A stretch of 8,571 bases of DNA, taken from contig JANWJO010000045.1 of the NCBI GenBank assembly GCA_025449435.1, forward strand, positions 1 through 8,571, read 5' to 3'. Below are positions 598-8,376 of the stretch, one piece after another; the first letter of the stretch is position 1; each line of letters starts with the position of its first letter. Position numbers and translations under genes: made by a program. This DNA comes from Chloroflexota bacterium. Lineage in GTDB: Bacteria; Chloroflexota; UBA4733. A model generated the notes under the pieces. That model did no database searches. It saw nothing but the letters and a program-made list of their open reading frames with translations, and was not told the DNA's origin.

Positions 598-855
598 ATG
601 AATTGGCAGAGCGTTCGGGGAACCAACCCTGTGCATGGATACTCTCCGCTGCAAATGCTGTTCCTCCTGCGCCTCAACCGTCTCCTCCGCTTGCAGCGGC
701 AGTACGCCAGCATGCCCCACACGGAGAAATATCTCTTGGAGATGCTCAATAAGGCGATGTACTCCACCTATGTGGACTGCGACGCGTTGGGTATCGCCAG
801 TAACGCCCGGGAGATGATCGAAAAGAGCCGGGCCGAGAAGAGCAGCAGCAGCTAA
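598..855 (+). CDS. Small hypothetical protein, 85 aa
   Basis: I do not recognise this protein. Several things argue that it is a real gene. It has a well-spaced Shine-Dalgarno, a plausible promoter just upstream and strong GC preference at third codon positions (about four fifths of codons by my count), and it fills the gap between groEL and the operon. The product starts MNWQSVRGTNPVHGY. A Leu/Arg-rich stretch (about residues 18-32) follows that looks like an amphipathic helix and is too charged to be a membrane segment. The second half is probably helical too, with one Cys in VDCDALG, and the end is a polar Lys/Ser tail. There is no signal peptide. A small, soluble, mostly helical cytoplasmic protein is the likeliest picture. 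Its TAA (853-855) overlaps the TAG of the convergent vWA gene, so the two genes end in each other. Any link to groEL or to the operon is unknown. Confidence 0.65.
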   Translation: MNWQSVRGTNPVHGYSPLQMLFLLRLNRLLRLQRQYASMPHTEKYLLEMLNKAMYSTYVDCDALGIASNAREMIEKSRAEKSSSS

Positions 856-2054
856 CGCTGCGTTTGGTCTGCCTGCACGGTTACGATGTCCTGGCGGCTT
901 GCCCACTTGCTCAGGTCCTGTCCTTGCAGTGCAGTGGCGAGCATGTCAGGAAACAGTTCGGGCGTACAACCAAAGGTGGGAACGCCGCTGGCTGCCATCG
1001 AAGCCGCTTCTTGACGGTGGTAAGCCGGTACACCGCGGTCGCTGAGGGCCAGCAGGCAAATGCACTGGACGCCGCTGTTCACCATCCACGCCACGCGGCG
1101 GCGCATGTCCAGCGCATTGCCACCCTCATACAAGTCACTCAACAGCACAAAGATGGTCTGCGCGGGTCGCCGGATGAGTCCCTGGCAGTAGGCCAGCGCC
1201 CGGTTAATGTCCGTGCCGCCGCCCAGATGCACACCGAATAGCAAGTCAACGGGGTCCTGCAGATCCTCGGTAAGGTCTACCACTGCTGTATCGAACACCA
1301 CTACGCGCGTGCTCAGTGCGCGGATTGAGGCGAGGACACAGCCGAAGATGCCCGCATACACTGCGGATGTGGCCATGGAGCCGCTCTGATCGATGCACAG
1401 GATGACGTCGCGTAACGACGTTTGTTTGCGCCCATGTCCGATCAACCGCTCAGGAATGATGGTGCGGCGATCGACTTGATAGTGCTTGAGGTTGGCGCGG
1501 ATGGTGCGGTCCCAGTCGATCTCGTGAGCACGTGGGCGTTGCCGCCTGGTAGCGCGGTTCAGGCTGCCGTGTACCGCTTGGATCAGCGAGGTTTTGAGCC
1601 GCCGTTCCACATTGTCCACCACGGCGCGGACGACTTGGCGAGCCGTGTCCCTAGTCTGGCTGGGGATAACGGCACGCAATGCCAGTAGCGTTGCTACGAG
1701 CTGCACGTCTCGTGTGGTGGCAGCCAGTAACTCCGGTTCTAGAAGCATCTGGCGAAGTCCGAATCTGGACAGCGCATCCTGCTGCATCACGGTGACCGCG
1801 GACATCGGAAAGTAGGTGCGGATGTCGCCCAGCCAGCGCGCCACATTCGGAGACGAGCGCTCCAGACCTGCCCGGCGAGGGCCGTCCGGCGGCTCCTCTT
1901 GAACGGCGTTGCTGTACAGCGCCGACAAGGAATTGTCCATGCCCTGATCGGTAGCCGAGAGGCCAATTTCCAGTTGTGCGTCGGGTCCGAGCACGAGCCG
2001 CCATCGGCGCATGCGCTCGGTTTCTGCCGGCAGAAGTGGTGGATTAGGAGGCAT
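852..2054 (-). CDS. vWA-domain protein (MIDAS) of the MoxR-vWA-DUF5682 cluster
   Basis: This 400-residue cytoplasmic protein is the last gene of the operon. The N-terminal half is helical, with blocks typical of this family (RRWRLVLG at 16-23, VARWLGDIRTYFP at 71-83, then LLLEPELL). A von Willebrand factor A domain fills about residues 215-375. The metal-ion-dependent adhesion site is complete: DQSGS at 222-226 (DxSxS), the Thr in GGGTD at 281 and the Asp in LLSDLYEGG at 307. In MoxR systems the vWA partner binds the AAA+ ring and presents substrate through the MIDAS metal, so this is the expected partner of the ATPase at 4305-5417. The start ATG lies inside the end of the DUF5682 gene (11-nt overlap) and has no Shine-Dalgarno, which suggests translation by coupling. 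Met15 is an alternative start but has no better site. There is no signal peptide or membrane segment. The family assignment is secure and the cellular role unknown. Confidence 0.93.
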   Translation of the reverse strand: MPPNPPLLPAETERMRRWRLVLGPDAQLEIGLSATDQGMDNSLSALYSNAVQEEPPDGPRRAGLERSSPNVARWLGDIRTYFPMSAVTVMQQDALSRFGLRQMLLEPELLAATTRDVQLVATLLALRAVIPSQTRDTARQVVRAVVDNVERRLKTSLIQAVHGSLNRATRRQRPRAHEIDWDRTIRANLKHYQVDRRTIIPERLIGHGRKQTSLRDVILCIDQSGSMATSAVYAGIFGCVLASIRALSTRVVVFDTAVVDLTEDLQDPVDLLFGVHLGGGTDINRALAYCQGLIRRPAQTIFVLLSDLYEGGNALDMRRRVAWMVNSGVQCICLLALSDRGVPAYHRQEAASMAASGVPTFGCTPELFPDMLATALQGQDLSKWASRQDIVTVQADQTQR

Positions 2055-4305
2055 TGCGCTGCACGCCGAGGATGCGTTGCAAAACAGGCAACACTATACG
2101 AGCACGCTGCATGTCCAGGCCATCTCCCCAAGTCATTTCCCGGCTGCTGGATGTGTTGGAGATCCCGGCTGATCCCAAGTTGGCTACAATTTCCGCCATG
2201 GCCTGGCGCTCGGGTGCGTGAAATCCAGCGAAGGCGCGGCGCAACACGGGTAACAATTGGACGAAGGTGCCGGCCGGAAGCGTGTTGAGCCACTCGTCCA
2301 GAATTTGCCACAATGCGCGCGCTTGGAGGAGTCGCATGCCGCTGCCGCGCAGGGCTCCTTGCAGCCACGCACCGGCTTGATCAGCTGGAACGGCCGGCGA
2401 CAGCGCCAACCCAGCTTGCTGAGACAGGTCAGCGGCGCCGAGTACCCCATCATCGAACAACAAACGTGCCGACCAACCACGCACGAGCGCGTGGTCGGTC
2501 TCTCGTTCCATGACCGCTCGCAGCGCCTGCTGCCAGGTCACACGCCAATCATCGTGCTCGAGCAGCGCGATACTTCCATGCACGTGCTCCATCGCGGTGG
2601 CCAGCTTGTCTGCCTGCAGGTCATCAACGAACTGGCAAGCGAGCGGCAAGCCGACGCACGCTCGCTTGAGCAAGCCGCCAATGATCGGAAGTATGTGTTG
2701 AGCGTTGGTCTGCCGCACATCGCTGTAACGCGCCAACCTGGCCAGTGGCGAAATGGCAGCCATGAGGTGCAGGGTGTCTGACGCCAGCGCCGCACTCTGC
2801 TGGACCGCGTCGAGTAGCGCCTCCACTGCAAATGGCAGACGAGCTAGCGTCGCCAAATCGAGCAATTCGGTCAGGCGGGGTAGTCCGGCGCCAGCGGCGG
2901 TATGTGCCATTCGTGCGCTCGCGGCCTCTTCCACGGTCGCGCCCCACACACTAGCCTCGATCACCGCAATCGTCAGCTCCGGCGCCCAAGCAAGTTCCCA
3001 CTCCTCGCGGAAGGTGCTGGTCGTTGACGAGCGCTGTAGCTTCTTGCCCCAACTAATGCCGAGGGCTACGAGCCGGTGCAAGACAGCGCTTCGTTCCAGG
3101 TCAAATTCGGTGCGCAGGTCGAGGTTCAAGTGACGCGTATCCGCCGTAGGCGACATTCGGAGCCGGCGCTGCAACGCGGCAAGGTCCGCTTGGAGCGGCA
3201 CAGCGGGCACGCTGTCCGGGACCGCACCCATGCGGTCACCGACCTCAAGCTTATGGCGTATGAGAGCAAGTGGCGCCTGGTTGCCGTTGCACATGACCGC
3301 GAACATGGCGTCGTTGAGTTCGTCCAGACCTGGAACAGGGCTCCCTCGCAATGCCGCGAGCGTTTGGGCCAGACGTTCGGACTCGATGACCGACGCTGAA
3401 GACACCGGGAGGTCTTCCGCCCGAAGTAAGCGAGCTGCTCTCACTAGCCAGGTGCTGCTTGACGACGAGCCACCGGCCCACAACTGCTCATACCAGCCAG
3501 GGGACGCAACACCCGCGCCGTACCCGCTGCGACTGGCCAGCCTGCCATTGGTCCATGGTACCCAGGTGGCAAGCACTCTAAGTCGCCCCAGATTGGCGAG
3601 CAATGCGGCATCCTGGGCGGCGGGGCCAAGGGTCGAGACCGCTGGCGCGTGCCAGGCGCCACACACCACGGCGACGCGTTGATACCCCTCGCGCTGAGCC
3701 GCGCGGATAGCTTGACGCATCGACGCCTCGCGCCTGGCTTCCACGCCATCTGGAGCGGGTGACTCGGCGCGCAGAGCCGTCATCGCCTGCAAGATGCCGT
3801 CAAAGAGGCCGGCACTGTCACGACGCTGCTCAATCTGCCGTTCCCACCATAGCTCGCGATCTGTGAACCCCGCCGCGGCAGCCAGCGCCCCCACCGGGTC
3901 GTCACTAGGGCTGGCTGTATGCCGTTCAGCATCCAGGTCCGGCGACATGTCACCTGGCAACCGGTCGGTTTGCTGTCGTTGTTCCGCGAGCAGTGCCGCG
4001 GCGGGCAAGTCTATGAGGCGGACAGGTATGGCGCAGCGCATTGCGTACTGAATCGCCTGCCACTCGGGAGAGTAGGTGGCAAACGGATAAAAGGCCGCCA
4101 ACTTGGGCACGTCGGCCGCATACACCAACAGCGCTACAGGTGTCTGCATCGCCGGATCCGCAGCCAGCGGCACGATGGCTTGGGCGTCGGGCGGGCCCTC
4201 AACCAGCACGATATCTGGAGCAAGCGACTCCAGCGCCGCCACGAGGCTGCGGGCGCATCCAGGTCCGTGATGCCGGATCCCATACACCGCAACCTGGCCG
4301 GGCAC
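2044..4305 (-). CDS. DUF5682-family protein, possible TIKI/TraB/ChaN-like hydrolase
   Basis: This is a 753-residue protein. Its N-terminal region (about 1-265) opens with AVYGIRHHGPG and LAPDIVLVEGPPDA, hallmarks of DUF5682. I also see two GxxH motifs (G9-IR-H12 and G216-AW-H219), Glu36 after a beta strand, and VRLIDLP with Asp99. The same order of motifs occurs in the TIKI/TraB/ChaN/EreA group of predicted metallo-hydrolases, so a hydrolytic active site is plausible but inferred. A polar stretch, about 103-145, interrupts the domain. A Ser-rich GGSSSSS segment lies at 278-284. The remainder (about 305-753) is a long, all-helical, probably scaffold-like region ending near FHAPERQAM. The start is GTG at 4305, which shares its G with the TAG of the upstream ATPase (TAGTG) and sits 7 nt after AGGAAG. 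The in-frame ATG at 4386 lies far inside the ATPase gene and is rejected. No signal peptide or membrane segment is seen. Substrate unknown. Confidence 0.9.
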   Translation of the reverse strand: MPGQVAVYGIRHHGPGCARSLVAALESLAPDIVLVEGPPDAQAIVPLAADPAMQTPVALLVYAADVPKLAAFYPFATYSPEWQAIQYAMRCAIPVRLIDLPAAALLAEQRQQTDRLPGDMSPDLDAERHTASPSDDPVGALAAAAGFTDRELWWERQIEQRRDSAGLFDGILQAMTALRAESPAPDGVEARREASMRQAIRAAQREGYQRVAVVCGAWHAPAVSTLGPAAQDAALLANLGRLRVLATWVPWTNGRLASRSGYGAGVASPGWYEQLWAGGSSSSSTWLVRAARLLRAEDLPVSSASVIESERLAQTLAALRGSPVPGLDELNDAMFAVMCNGNQAPLALIRHKLEVGDRMGAVPDSVPAVPLQADLAALQRRLRMSPTADTRHLNLDLRTEFDLERSAVLHRLVALGISWGKKLQRSSTTSTFREEWELAWAPELTIAVIEASVWGATVEEAASARMAHTAAGAGLPRLTELLDLATLARLPFAVEALLDAVQQSAALASDTLHLMAAISPLARLARYSDVRQTNAQHILPIIGGLLKRACVGLPLACQFVDDLQADKLATAMEHVHGSIALLEHDDWRVTWQQALRAVMERETDHALVRGWSARLLFDDGVLGAADLSQQAGLALSPAVPADQAGAWLQGALRGSGMRLLQARALWQILDEWLNTLPAGTFVQLLPVLRRAFAGFHAPERQAMAEIVANLGSAGISNTSSSREMTWGDGLDMQRARIVLPVLQRILGVQRNAS

Positions 4306-5417
4306 TACAGCACTTCCTGGCACGCTCGAAACAGGTCTTGCCAGCCTTCGCGTTCTCTGGCTACCGTTTGCAGGTACTCCAGCCACACCACGCGGTCTTG
4401 CACCGGGTCGCGTACGATGGCGCCGGTGATGCCGGACGCCAGGTCGTTGGCGCCCATCCGGCCTTCGCCAAAGAATGCCGCGCTCGCCAGGCCGCCGGTG
4501 ACCACCGAGATAGCTTCGGCGGTGGAGAGTGTGCCACTGGGCGACTTTACTTTGGCCTTGCCATCAAGCGTCTTGCCATCGCGCAACTCACGGAACACGG
4601 TGACCACACGGCGGATCTCTTCCAGAACCGGTTGCTCAACGGGCAACTCCAGTGCTTTGCCCAATGAGGCCACTCGCTGATCCACAATCGTCACTTCTTC
4701 GTCCAGCGTCGCCGGAACCGGCAGCACCACCGTGTTGAACCGGCGCATCAACGCGCTCGACAGCTCGTTCACACCCTTGTCACGGTTGTTGGCTGTGGCA
4801 ATGAGGTTAAATCCCTTACGAGCTTGGACTTCCGTAGTAAGTTCCGGAACCGGCAGCGTTTTTTCGGAGAGCACGGTGATGAGGGTATCCTGCACCTCGG
4901 CCGGCATACGCGTGAGCTCCTCGACGCGAACAATCTTGCCGTCGCGCATGGCCCTCAGCACTGGTCCGATAACTAACGCCTGCTCCGACGGGCCCTCGGC
5001 TATTAGGCGCGCGTAGTTCCAGCCGTAGCGGATGGCGCTTTCGTCGGTACCGGCGGTGCCTTGGATCAACAGCGTCGAGTCGCCAGAAATCGCTGCGGCC
5101 AGATGTTCGCTCACCCACGACTTCGCAGTGCCAGGTAGGCCGTACAGTAGGAGCGCGCGATCGGTTGCCAGCGTGGAGATGGCAATCTCCATCAGCCGCG
5201 CGTTGCCGATGTATTTCGCCGTTACCTCAAAGCCGTTGGACAGCGTGCCACCTAGCAGATAGGTACGCACGGCCCACGGCGACATGCGCCAGTTGGGCGG
5301 ACGCTGCTTGGTGTCTTCCCGCTGCAGTTCGGTCAGCTCTTGCGCAAACTGCTGCTCGACGTGCTCGCGCAGCAGCCCGGCAGCGCCAGACGATACTTCG
5401 CGTTGATAGCTGCTCAT
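4305..5417 (-). CDS. MoxR-type AAA+ ATPase
   Basis: This 370-residue protein is a single AAA+ module preceded by a helical N-terminal region of about 70 residues. Walker A is GLPGTAKS (93-100). The Walker B region reads KIVRVEELTRMP (161-172), with Glu-Glu where most AAA+ proteins have Asp-Glu. Sensor 1 is in LIATANNRDKG (Asn210), followed by ALMRRFN with Arg225/226 as arginine-finger candidates. The C-terminal helical lid contains ISVVTGGLASAAFFGEG (303-319). MoxR ATPases form hexameric rings that use ATP to remodel partners or insert cofactors, commonly with a vWA protein, and one is encoded two genes downstream. The start is the ATG at 5415-5417, which overlaps the preceding TGA as ATGA and follows a GGAAGGA ribosome binding site by 5 nt. 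An in-frame extension to 5549 lies wholly inside the upstream gene and is not used here. It looks intact and active. Confidence 0.95.
   Translation of the reverse strand: MSSYQREVSSGAAGLLREHVEQQFAQELTELQREDTKQRPPNWRMSPWAVRTYLLGGTLSNGFEVTAKYIGNARLMEIAISTLATDRALLLYGLPGTAKSWVSEHLAAAISGDSTLLIQGTAGTDESAIRYGWNYARLIAEGPSEQALVIGPVLRAMRDGKIVRVEELTRMPAEVQDTLITVLSEKTLPVPELTTEVQARKGFNLIATANNRDKGVNELSSALMRRFNTVVLPVPATLDEEVTIVDQRVASLGKALELPVEQPVLEEIRRVVTVFRELRDGKTLDGKAKVKSPSGTLSTAEAISVVTGGLASAAFFGEGRMGANDLASGITGAIVRDPVQDRVVWLEYLQTVAREREGWQDLFRACQEVL
4313..4318 (-). promoter_or_regulatory. Ribosome binding site supporting GTG start of the DUF5682 gene
   Basis: On the minus strand AGGAAG lies 7 nt before the GTG at 4305. 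It sits inside the last codons of the ATPase gene. Together with the TAGTG junction it fixes the start and avoids an 82-nt overlap that the upstream ATG would require. Confidence 0.6.
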
Positions 5418-7042
5418 GGCAGTCCTTCCCAGATGGATTGCCGGATTGAGACAATGCGCACCAGCGCATCCACCCCGACCCGCCAGGCTATGGAGGCCAT
5501 AGTTTTGGCCTCTGGAAGCATCCAAGGTTGGAGCGCTGCGGCGAAGCACGACGGCGGCAGCGCAACCGCTGCGATGTGCGTGTTGGGCGGTAGCTCCGTG
5601 CTGCCGATGGTTGGCGGATTGTTGACGAACGATCTGGCATACGCGCGCAACATTCCAACGTAGGTTCGACCAAAGGTCTCCGACCAGGGTTGTGGCATAG
5701 ATTCCAGGAGTTGCCGGAGGTGCCGTTTCTCAGCTTCCTCTTGAGCGTCCAGCAGTGAGAGCGCGAGGCGCTCCGCTGCGTTGCTGGGCAACAGCCTGAC
5801 GAGCGCCGGTATGAAGGCAACCTCAGGGCCCAAGATATCGGTCCGTGGGGGGCCAGCTGCCTGGCTCCACCAGTAAGGTAACAACAGATCGGCCCAGGAA
5901 CCGTCGCCGAAGACGTGCGCCGATAGCGACCAGCCGGCAAAAAGCGCATCTGCCCAGTCCGTGTCGCACGCCGCTTGCGTAATAGCTTCTGGCGTTGCTT
6001 CCAGTTGCTGCTCCCATTGTGCAAGCGGCGTAGCCGCCAGCACGTCCTGTATCCACCCAGCTGGACTCGACCCGGTCAGGGAGTTCGAGGTTCGCACGAA
6101 GTCACGCGCCGCGCTGTCCATGTGTAGCACGTCGGGGTCAAGGTGGAAGTGGAGAACAAGCTTGCCGCGCTTGTGGCTTCCCGACACGAGCAGCCTGGCG
6201 CGCTCGCGCATGCGCAGTGAGAAGCGAGACCCTACCAGGGTACGCAGGAGGCTTGCACTTTCCACCCGTACTTCCAGAGAACGGTCGTCGAGCGCTCGCT
6301 CTAAGAAGTCCTCGTCGGCTAGTGTCAAGCCGGTGGCAAGCGCTGCTACCGACTTGGCTCGCAGGGCGGCAGGGTCAGTGTGCCAGGTGGACTCTAGCCA
6401 GCCGCGCGCCTGACCGGCGTCGATCGACCGTCCTGCCTCGAGGGCAGCGATCCGCTCGGCCGTCGTGCCGGTGTTCCAGACGGCGGCAAGCACGTCTATC
6501 CCGGTCGCGCCCGTACCCACTGGTGCTGCCCACGTCCACTCAAGGTTGAAGGACGCCAGCCAGCGGCCTCGCTCACCGAGCACCGGTCGCAGGCAGCGCC
6601 GGAGCTGTGGTGGCTTGCTCGCCAGCGCCAATGGCAAGAGCCAGTTCGGCAATCGTTGACTTCGGTCACTGACCCATCCCAATGCCTCAGCCAGGACCTT
6701 GCAGCTGAGCCAGGGATGGGACGCGTCGGGTGAAAGAATGCACTCCGTTACCCATGGGCCGTGTCCAACCAGGAGCAGCACACGGTGCAGATGCTGGGCG
6801 ACCACAGGCGAACATTCAGGCAGGATATCGGGTGGAGCAATGGGCATTCGTTGGGTGCAGTGGATGGACTGCCCACCGGCAAGCTGGATGACGGCCTGCG
6901 CACCGGCGGCAATGAGCATGCGCTGTTCTACCGTGAGCATTGCTGCAGGAGCAAACAGTTCGCTCAGCGGCGCTGGCACCTCCAAATGCTCAACTCCCGC
7001 TTGCGCCGTCCCCTGTATCGCTACGTCGAGCAGTGATGGCAT
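5414..7042 (-). CDS. DUF5691-family helical-repeat protein
   Basis: This 542-residue protein has no catalytic motif that I can see. It resembles DUF5691 proteins, which sit beside SWIM, MoxR, vWA and DUF5682 genes in other bacteria. The clearest part is a HEAT-like stretch at about 195-272 (ERIAALEAG, then DPAALRAKSVAALATGLTLADEDFLERALDDRSLEVRVESASLLRTL in shorter units), with the paired helices and the Asp/Arg spacing of HEAT repeats. This suggests a protein-binding scaffold. The N-terminus (MPSLLDVAIQGTAQAG) and the Trp-rich middle and end are otherwise unrevealing. No signal peptide or membrane segment is seen. The start is ATG at 7042, which shares its A with the TGA of the SWIM gene (TGATG) and sits 6 nt after GAGGA. 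Upstream in-frame starts to 7117 lie inside the SWIM gene and lack this support. Family call is moderately secure; the role as scaffold or adaptor is inference. Confidence 0.82.
   Translation of the reverse strand: MPSLLDVAIQGTAQAGVEHLEVPAPLSELFAPAAMLTVEQRMLIAAGAQAVIQLAGGQSIHCTQRMPIAPPDILPECSPVVAQHLHRVLLLVGHGPWVTECILSPDASHPWLSCKVLAEALGWVSDRSQRLPNWLLPLALASKPPQLRRCLRPVLGERGRWLASFNLEWTWAAPVGTGATGIDVLAAVWNTGTTAERIAALEAGRSIDAGQARGWLESTWHTDPAALRAKSVAALATGLTLADEDFLERALDDRSLEVRVESASLLRTLVGSRFSLRMRERARLLVSGSHKRGKLVLHFHLDPDVLHMDSAARDFVRTSNSLTGSSPAGWIQDVLAATPLAQWEQQLEATPEAITQAACDTDWADALFAGWSLSAHVFGDGSWADLLLPYWWSQAAGPPRTDILGPEVAFIPALVRLLPSNAAERLALSLLDAQEEAEKRHLRQLLESMPQPWSETFGRTYVGMLRAYARSFVNNPPTIGSTELPPNTHIAAVALPPSCFAAALQPWMLPEAKTMASIAWRVGVDALVRIVSIRQSIWEGLP
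5423..5429 (-). promoter_or_regulatory. Ribosome binding site of the MoxR ATPase gene
   Basis: GGAAGGA on the minus strand is the strongest Shine-Dalgarno of the operon and leaves 5 nt to the ATG at 5417. It sits within the final codons of the DUF5691-like gene. It selects the 370-residue form and may make the ATPase the best-translated product, as would suit a ring-forming subunit. Confidence 0.6.
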
Positions 7043-8376
7043 CACGAGTCCTCGATCAGCCTGTACAACGCACCGTCGATCAACGCAGCGTGTGGTGCCA
7101 GCGATGTCCCGTCCCACTCACCGGCGAGATCCAGCGGCTGCCCGCCGGAAACGGCAAGTAAACGCCAATGCTCGCCTTTGCTCAGCGGCAGTGCCTGGTT
7201 GCTGGTTTCGGCAATGACCCATCGATCTGCGCCTAGCCGCACCGGTGTGACACTGTGGAGCGTACAGGGAAAAAGGTCTAACCAGGGTTGATGGCTCAGT
7301 TTTAGCGACACCTGATCCAGGAATCGGCCTACGCTCACCGCGCCGCCCAGCCCGACAGGCTGGCTCGACGATACAATGGCCCCATCGCACAACAACGCCC
7401 GCTGGGGACACGCGCTTGGCCAAAAGGCCATCGTGCCCCACACGAGCTGCCCGGGTTTGCCGATCTTATCAAACGTGGCCCCGTTAGCCGCGTAACTGAG
7501 TTCCAACGCATCCCGCCTCGTATTTACGCCCTGAAGCCAGGTGCGCCGCACGCGGAGCCGATCCTCGACATACGTGCGCTGAGAGACGACCAACCAGTGG
7601 TCGTTGACATGGTCCCCTTGAGTGAGCACAGCCTCTTTGGTCAGGGTCCAACCGATGGAGTGGCGCACATCGGCCTGCAACGGCGGGTCAAGGGTGTCGA
7701 TGCTCCGGTAAGCCTGCACGAGCAACGTCAGCTTGCCCAGCTCAGCGAGCACGCGCTCGGGCCAGTTGGCAGATGTATGTACGAGTTCACCAATCCGCCG
7801 CACCCTCGCGGCGAGCGCCGGTGCCTGCGCATCCACCAGCCGGGCTGCTTGCGCATCCCAGAACGCCTTACGCTGGCTTCCGAGCGCCGCAAGTCCCTGG
7901 CGGATGATGTCCTGGCTCCACAATTCTAAGCTATCGAGCCCGACATCTACCTGTTCCTTGCGGCGCTCTGCGCGCCTGGCTTGTGCCTTGACGTCGGGCC
8001 CGCTGGAAGCTTGCGCCCGTTCTTGGCGCGCCGCCGCGCGTTTTTCGCGCTGACTGAGCCAGTCGGTCACCCAGCCGGGAGGGTCGGCCTGTGGCAGGTC
8101 GCCGCCTTGTTGTGCGGCCAGCAATAACAGCGCGAGCGCATGTTTACACGGCTGTTTGTGGCTCGGACAGGTGCACTTGAAGCCCAGGTCGTGGATGGAC
8201 GCTCGCACCTGGTACAGGGTGCTCCCTTTAAATTCTCCCCACACGGCGTGCGCGTTCATCCCCAGGAGTTGCCAGGATGGTACGCGGGCCAGGGTTCGCG
8301 CCACCTTCGCCGCCGGGACATCTGGTGCCAGCGCAAGCACCGATTCAACGTGGAGCGGCGCGCTGTCCATGGCCAT
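7042..8376 (-). CDS. SWIM zinc-finger protein, first gene of the operon
   Basis: With the start chosen here the protein has 444 residues. An N-terminal module ends in a SWIM zinc finger: CTCPSHKQPCKH (68-79) gives the pattern CxC-x6-CxH (Cys68, Cys70, Cys77, His79). The lead-in is typical of the family, with SVLALAPD, then AVWGEFKGSTLYQV. A basic, Ala/Arg/Glu-rich linker (about 107-142) is probably helical or disordered. The rest (about 145-444) is a conserved-looking C-terminal region with no motif I can name. SWIM domains bind nucleic acid or protein, so this may be the sensor or targeting subunit. The start is uncertain. TTG at 8433, ATG at 8376 and ATG at 8370 are all in frame and none has a Shine-Dalgarno. 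I prefer 8376 or 8370 because they place the N-terminus just ahead of the conserved SVLALAPD block. Confidence 0.88.
   Translation of the reverse strand: MAMDSAPLHVESVLALAPDVPAAKVARTLARVPSWQLLGMNAHAVWGEFKGSTLYQVRASIHDLGFKCTCPSHKQPCKHALALLLLAAQQGGDLPQADPPGWVTDWLSQREKRAAARQERAQASSGPDVKAQARRAERRKEQVDVGLDSLELWSQDIIRQGLAALGSQRKAFWDAQAARLVDAQAPALAARVRRIGELVHTSANWPERVLAELGKLTLLVQAYRSIDTLDPPLQADVRHSIGWTLTKEAVLTQGDHVNDHWLVVSQRTYVEDRLRVRRTWLQGVNTRRDALELSYAANGATFDKIGKPGQLVWGTMAFWPSACPQRALLCDGAIVSSSQPVGLGGAVSVGRFLDQVSLKLSHQPWLDLFPCTLHSVTPVRLGADRWVIAETSNQALPLSKGEHWRLLAVSGGQPLDLAGEWDGTSLAPHAALIDGALYRLIEDS
7049..7053 (-). promoter_or_regulatory. Ribosome binding site of the DUF5691-like gene
   Basis: GAGGA on the minus strand lies 6 nt before the ATG at 7042, inside the end of the SWIM gene. 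It supports the TGATG junction as the true start and translational coupling of the two genes. Confidence 0.55.

Follow-up and report, generated by a model that had tools for sequence, protein, structure and literature searches.

What do five tightly packed genes of a Chloroflexota bacterium build together? The question is raised by an 8,571-nt stretch of contig JANWJO010000045.1 (hereafter the window, meaning the whole stretch of DNA that was analysed), in which five intact genes, all on the minus strand within positions 852-8376, encode in order a SWIM zinc-finger protein, a DUF5691 protein, a MoxR AAA+ ATPase, a DUF5682 protein and a CoxE-type vWA protein. Here we report an analysis which suggests that the products of this operon probably form a protein machine that is driven by ATP and centred on DUF5682, whose enzyme-like domain was unrecognised. 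A preliminary description of the locus had stated that the genes are intact, lie on one strand and overlap at every junction, which the open reading frames (ORFs), the Pfam families and the reading of the DNA confirm, and that this exact set has no known function, which holds within the literature searched.

All four junctions overlap when the DNA is read with tightly coupled starts, the overlaps being, in gene order, 1 nt (TGATG), 4 nt (ATGA), 1 nt (TAGTG) and 11 nt; longer alternative starts are offered by the ORF finder at TTG 8433, GTG 7117, GTG 5549 and GTG 4386. The coupled starts give a SWIM protein of 444 aa (7042-8376, ATG 8376), a HEAT-repeat-like DUF5691 protein of 542 aa (5414-7042, ATG 7042), a YehL-type MoxR ATPase of 370 aa (4305-5417, ATG 5417), a DUF5682 protein of 753 aa (2044-4305, GTG 4305) and a vWA protein of 400 aa (852-2054, ATG 2054). 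In a Pfam scan of the window proteins all five families scored above the curated cut-off: SWIM (PF04434) at 23.2 bits for a cut-off of 19.6, DUF5691 (PF18944) at 311 bits, AAA_5 (PF07728) at 122.6 bits, DUF5682 (PF18934) at 801.3 bits and VWA_CoxE (PF05762) at 168.9 bits. The translations retain the Walker A motif of MoxR (GLPGTAKS, aa 93-100, at 5118-5141) together with its acidic VEE (IVRVEEL), sensor ATANN and MRRF (ALMRRF) motifs, and the metal ion-dependent adhesion site (MIDAS) of the vWA protein (DQSGS, aa 222-226, at 1377-1391). The pairing of MoxR with vWA is the expected one.

Do the five genes form one set? Profiles of DUF5682 and DUF5691 were run against 151 evenly drawn Chloroflexota genomes; the former was found in 24 of them and the latter, above cut-off, in 15. 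All 15 lie within the 24 and are the top DUF5682 scorers (757 bits or more); a sixteenth DUF5691 match, in genome G013, reached only 22.6 bits and was accompanied by no DUF5682 match. Fourteen of the 15 have the genes in the order SWIM-DUF5691-MoxR-DUF5682-vWA, all on the same strand, and in the last (G086) the genes are split over separate contigs. Insertions between genes occur in some of the ordered copies: L015, for example, has two-component genes, and G147 has a reverse transcriptase gene of the group II intron type. In the latter (approximately C1:2979557-2984900; L076, L020), about 4 kb separate SWIM from DUF5691 and hold this reverse transcriptase/HNH gene. Co-occurrence and gene order, which the preliminary description had proposed as a check on its treatment of the five genes as one set, therefore bear it out.

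The arrangement is also found beyond this sample, and we rejected the idea that the set is unique to the window. Of the 24 DUF5682-bearing Chloroflexota genomes, 20 supplied loci (G094, G072, G040 and G032 were left out), and 10 of the 36 records with DUF5682 in a plasmid collection were opened. Six of these ten have the window-type order: Methylobacterium (L033) and Deinococcus (L038) keep it, Rhizobium (L034) does so with a SWIM protein detected only by the family profile made here, Methylosinus (L042) has the vWA gene as a partial ORF only, Fusobacterium (L039) has a 637-aa protein with no Pfam match at the DUF5691 position, and Hymenobacter (L035) carries a gene fusion. The remaining four (L036, L037, L040 and L041) are of the E. 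coli type described below. A separate arrangement, vWA-MoxR-DUF5682, was observed in L031 and L032, where the DUF5682 protein is about 890 aa long and its Pfam match is weak and in pieces.

Two natural fusions join members of the set. In Hymenobacter, SWIM (aa 3-460) and DUF5691 (aa 498-999) form one 1,009-aa protein, the SWIM part of which scores below the Pfam cut-off and at 404 bits with the family profile built here. In Streptomyces atratus, DUF5682 and vWA are joined in one protein with profile scores of 399 and 296 bits; this is the single one of 23 scanned DUF5682 members with a VWA_CoxE match (4.7e-64). Pairwise distances of the five proteins correlate (rho 0.67-0.94 over 18 loci, 17 for vWA; none of 500 permutations as high), and this correlation, computed without a species-tree control, shows little beyond shared inheritance. 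Because the order is conserved, the families co-occur and two fusions are found, the five genes are a real functional unit.

To which known systems is this unit related? In E. coli K-12, yehL, yehM, yehP and yehQ encode AAA_5, DUF5682 (330.8 bits), VWA_CoxE and SWIM proteins, that is four of the five families on one strand with tight spacing, and YehL falls in one group with the MoxR protein of the window. The E. coli operon differs in its order (MoxR-DUF5682-vWA-SWIM), in having no DUF5691 and in the DUF4132 and WGR genes upstream; moreover, YehQ was missed by the SWIM-protein profile built here and found only by the short Pfam zinc-finger model. The preliminary description was right, within the literature searched, that a function is unreported, but it overlooked this kinship with yehLMPQ. 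The DNA of yehLMPQ was matched in 5,301 of 5,426 complete E. coli genomes, in 5,162 over at least 80% of its length, at 5,320 chromosomal places and 2 on plasmids. One conjugative E. coli plasmid (L036, NZ_CP103756) carries a stretch that looks chromosomal: it spans a DUF4132 gene, the relatives of yehLMPQ and mlrA, and a gene for an IS26 transposase lies at its border.

A quick, unrooted tree of 34 MoxR-like proteins, from which four AAA matches below 50 bits were dropped, separates the 21 DUF5682-linked MoxR proteins, window and YehL included, from the 13 others by one branch (SH-like approximate likelihood-ratio test, SH-aLRT, 98). Inside the 21 rows, 13 proteins from window-like operons, which we call type I, form a supported set. 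The placement of the long rows RavA and L065 is unsure, and none of the other named MoxR subfamilies was entered under its name. A YehL subfamily of MoxR is named in the literature (PMC3893208, PMC11432383); that it is defined by a neighbourhood of vWA, DUF5682 and SWIM, such as the window has, is our own reading. Given the grouping with YehL and the named subfamily, we therefore place the window among the YehL-class MoxR operons, as their type I variant, and do not regard it as a new kind of system. RavA-ViaA of E. coli is likewise a MoxR-vWA operon pair (PMC3893208), but the tree puts RavA, whose branch is too long to be reliable, on the side of the other MoxR-like proteins, and the available part of the same source describes no DUF5682, DUF5691 or SWIM partner for the pair. 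Two side observations concern MoxR genes. A second one lies about 6 kb downstream of the vWA gene of the DUF5682 operon in L029 (40-1167) and falls outside the YehL group, and those of L018 (5857-8226) and L030 (5590-7986) are split by LAGLIDADG-bearing inteins, which lie immediately ahead of the matched AAA part.

The E. coli type also indicates which member of the set may be replaceable. DUF4132, with or without WGR, is usual in E. coli-type operons, either upstream or inside, and in the four further records of this type that were opened, the operon has DUF4132, not DUF5691. Among the 151 Chloroflexota genomes DUF4132 occurs in 7, three of which are type I genomes with DUF4132 located elsewhere. 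No opened operon had DUF4132 and DUF5691 together, L033 and L039 being unannotated and not scanned for DUF4132. Since DUF4132 is found in E. coli-type operons and a HEAT_2 protein inside the operon of L030, our data suggest that one role, that of a helical-repeat protein, may be filled interchangeably by DUF5691, DUF4132 and HEAT proteins.

A possible clue to what the unit does lies in DUF5682. In the predicted structure its N-terminal domain (aa 1-262, 3520-4305) resembles the TraB/TIKI hydrolase fold, with the parallel beta-sheet core and flanking helices that this fold requires, and is followed by an all-helical, repeat-like part. A 152-row alignment, in which some Dictyobacter genes are repeated, shows conserved positions H12/H13, E36, R192-E193 and H219, and this His/Glu/Arg/His series is retained in distant members. 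TraB/TIKI enzymes require a catalytic His-Glu pair, a second His and a nearby basic residue (PMC6254334); H12/H13 with E36, H219 and R192 match this set. DUF5682 thus shares with the TraB/TIKI hydrolases a predicted fold and the order of the conserved His, Glu, Arg and His, and differs from them in its long helical arm, in the lack here of a sequence-profile link and in one residue discussed below.

Several results weigh against this assignment. H12 is missing in 8 of the 152 aligned rows and H13 in 2 of 23, with no row that has letters there lacking both. The TIKI endopeptidase has a further Glu at position -2 from its first His, where DUF5682 has I10. This second catalytic Glu may not be general among TraB/TIKI proteins, because it is read from one enzyme and E. 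coli YbaP, of the TraB family, has Ser at that place (GSIH). A Foldseek search against the PDB gave no match at E <= 0.001, a Tetrahymena chain ranking 29th with E 0.25, and hhalign aligned the DUF5682 N-domain with a YbaP/TraB profile, shallow at an effective number of sequences (Neff) of about 3, at E 0.39, within the 0.12-0.58 of four unrelated controls. Pfam TraB was matched in 1 of 23 DUF5682 members (E 0.18). E-values of our own profile searches refer to our own small sequence sets. A PDB sequence search with the DUF5682 profile found no convincing relative, one with E. coli YbaP, aimed at identifying the Tetrahymena chain, gave no match, and no TraB family member (PF01963) from which a deeper profile could be built was found in 41 Chloroflexota genomes. 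The erythromycin esterase and ChaN structures (PMC6254334) are not among the best 50 in either structure-match list, which excludes nothing. On balance, the DUF5682 N-domain likely has a TIKI fold, a prediction supported but not proven, and catalysis by it is plausible. The preliminary description had proposed a hydrolytic DUF5682; the predicted fold agrees with this, and sequence profiles do not confirm it.

The other two proteins may be binding components. The SWIM protein is modelled as a SWIM domain (aa 5-97, about 8086-8364), a helical central part and a pair of OB-like folds (aa 250-436, about 7069-7629). Its zinc ligands (CxC...CxH: C68, C70, C77, H79) are the same in all 62 aligned homologues, and a structure search matched the model to ZSWIM8. 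The tandem OB-like folds resemble DNA-binding proteins, among them cytosolic DNA sensors, but the net charge of the region is neutral to acidic (family mean -3.3, n = 62), by which DNA binding is not favoured for the modelled folds. DUF5691 had been described as a HEAT-like scaffold: its HEAT-like character is weakly supported, with HEAT_2 in 6 and HEAT in 4 of 21 members (Pfam, E <= 1; best 1.4e-4) and neither in the window protein. PDB sequence searches with the SWIM and DUF5691 profiles found no convincing relative for the former and no convincing solved relative for the latter.

The two fusions, together with the known MoxR-vWA partnership, point to two likely subassemblies, SWIM-DUF5691 and MoxR-vWA-DUF5682. 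Judging by their families, MoxR and the CoxE-type vWA protein would form an ATP-driven motor and its adaptor. DUF5682 would do the work, its TraB/TIKI-like hydrolase domain being carried by a helical-repeat arm and placed beside vWA, as fold and fusion suggest, while SWIM and the HEAT-like DUF5691 would make up a second module that binds a substrate or partner. ATP hydrolysis by MoxR, relayed through vWA, would remodel the substrate or open DUF5682, and the bound target would then be cleaved or otherwise hydrolysed by DUF5682. We tentatively favour this whole model, in which a MoxR-vWA motor controls a TIKI-like DUF5682 hydrolase with SWIM-DUF5691 as receptor, and put its probability a little below even. 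A more specific version, that MoxR-vWA-DUF5682 is a new ATP-gated protease-like machine whose motor feeds or unlocks the TIKI-fold hydrolase through vWA, served by a receptor in which the SWIM/tandem-OB protein is paired with an interchangeable helical-repeat protein (DUF5691 in one branch and elsewhere DUF4132 or a HEAT protein), is possible though rather unlikely when all its parts are taken jointly.

Of the rival explanations, the one that survives best is a maturation chaperone, in which a target enzyme receives a metal or cofactor from the complex, or is assembled by it, and DUF5682 serves as a structural adaptor or is a former enzyme. The literature describes MoxR proteins as factors that mature or activate specific complexes (PMC3893208), and the window vWA is of the CoxE type, CoxE taking part in cofactor assembly of carbon monoxide dehydrogenase (PMC4240915). 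WGR/DUF4132 genes lie beside yehL, and E. coli MolR, a WGR-domain protein, is cited as possibly concerned with molybdate, but the same paper reports molybdate genes unchanged (PMC8533742). Mutations in yehM arose in copper-evolved E. coli populations in one experiment (PMC12409786). Our neighbour scan, which covered 79 of 85 selected ORFs (six of L002 were left out; the best 25 families are listed per table), revealed no recurring cofactor enzyme among the best 25 of 167 families. Moreover, the His/Glu/Arg/His positions kept in distant DUF5682 members would be needless in an inert adaptor. We consider this explanation unlikely, yet a real competitor of the hydrolase model.

Could the operon instead defend its host? 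An anti-phage or conflict system of a further MoxR-vWA type, with SWIM sensing invader nucleic acid or protein and DUF5682 as effector, appears improbable. The MoxR-vWA core is common to the window and to the published ternary conflict systems (Kaur et al. 2020), whose third component is VMAP, iSTAND, FtsH or a beta-propeller (PMC7159879). None of these four was found in the five window proteins (Pfam, E <= 1), and the bpMoxR model scored 22.4 bits for a cut-off of 27; membership in these systems was rejected, as the third components are absent. PADLOC models gave only weak matches to the window proteins, PDC-S62 to the SWIM protein at 26.5 bits and IetA and CARF-AAA models to MoxR at 12.5-14.6 bits. 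PDC-S62 is a defence-candidate model, but its match is confined to residues 47-132 of the longer SWIM ORF, around the zinc finger, and the likeness of the OB-like folds to DNA sensors meets the charge argument given above. An Iodobacter copy of the operon adjoins a type I restriction system. Among the matches listed for the 79 neighbour proteins, the mad3 and mad8 models have 7 each and Cas1_IIIb has 1; we read these as cross-matches of common kinase, ATPase and methyltransferase folds, without individual checks. The E. coli relative is near-universal and nearly always chromosomal, unlike patchy defence genes, and a scan of viral_contigs with one peptide pattern confirmed no relative. The sole record labelled as phage (L043, MT835988, 'Bacteriophage sp.', unverified) carries MoxR-DUF5682-vWA along with MgsA, DUF5717 and DUF5716 genes, because of which it is probably a bacterial contig. 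Thus no clear case for an anti-phage role emerges from the genomics, and the link to defence that the preliminary description proposed to check is not supported.

A machine for DNA damage or general stress, partnered by DUF4132/WGR proteins where the operon is E. coli-like, seems slightly less probable still. WGR-DUF4132 genes do adjoin the E. coli-like form, and depletion of the DdrO repressor in Deinococcus radiodurans raises the expression of a DUF4132 gene and of a WGR gene (PMC8533742), but a link of those genes to the five-gene operon is not shown, and DUF4132 is absent from the window and lies away from the operon in the type I genomes that have it. Finally, chance co-transcription of unrelated housekeeping genes, which the inter-gene insertions in L015 and G147 might suggest, is hardly credible and is refuted for practical purposes by co-occurrence and gene order, with the order kept in several phyla, DUF5691 strictly nested in DUF5682 genomes and two fusions.

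Outside the operon, the window holds an 87-aa ORF on the plus strand (592-855), which overlaps the end of the vWA gene on the opposite strand by 4 nt and has no relative in the fetched loci. An open-ended plus-strand ORF (3-362), convergent with the operon, is presumably the C-terminal part of GroEL.

The gene cluster is widespread in bacteria and functionally little studied. In the literature searched no paper names DUF5682 or DUF5691, and the papers examined mention yehM, yehP and yehQ in mutation lists only; yehQ is also listed among the genes tested in a butanol-tolerance study (PMC6442406). New here are the predicted TraB/TIKI-like N-domain of DUF5682, the model of the SWIM protein with two OB-like folds and the proposed wiring based on fusions. 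DUF5682 is a large, little-studied family, found in at least 7,856 proteins and with a member, YehM, in E. coli K-12, where the active-site prediction and the proposed subunit wiring are directly testable. If the operon did encode an ATP-gated protease-like machine, a near-universal E. coli operon would prove to be an unrecognised regulated hydrolase.

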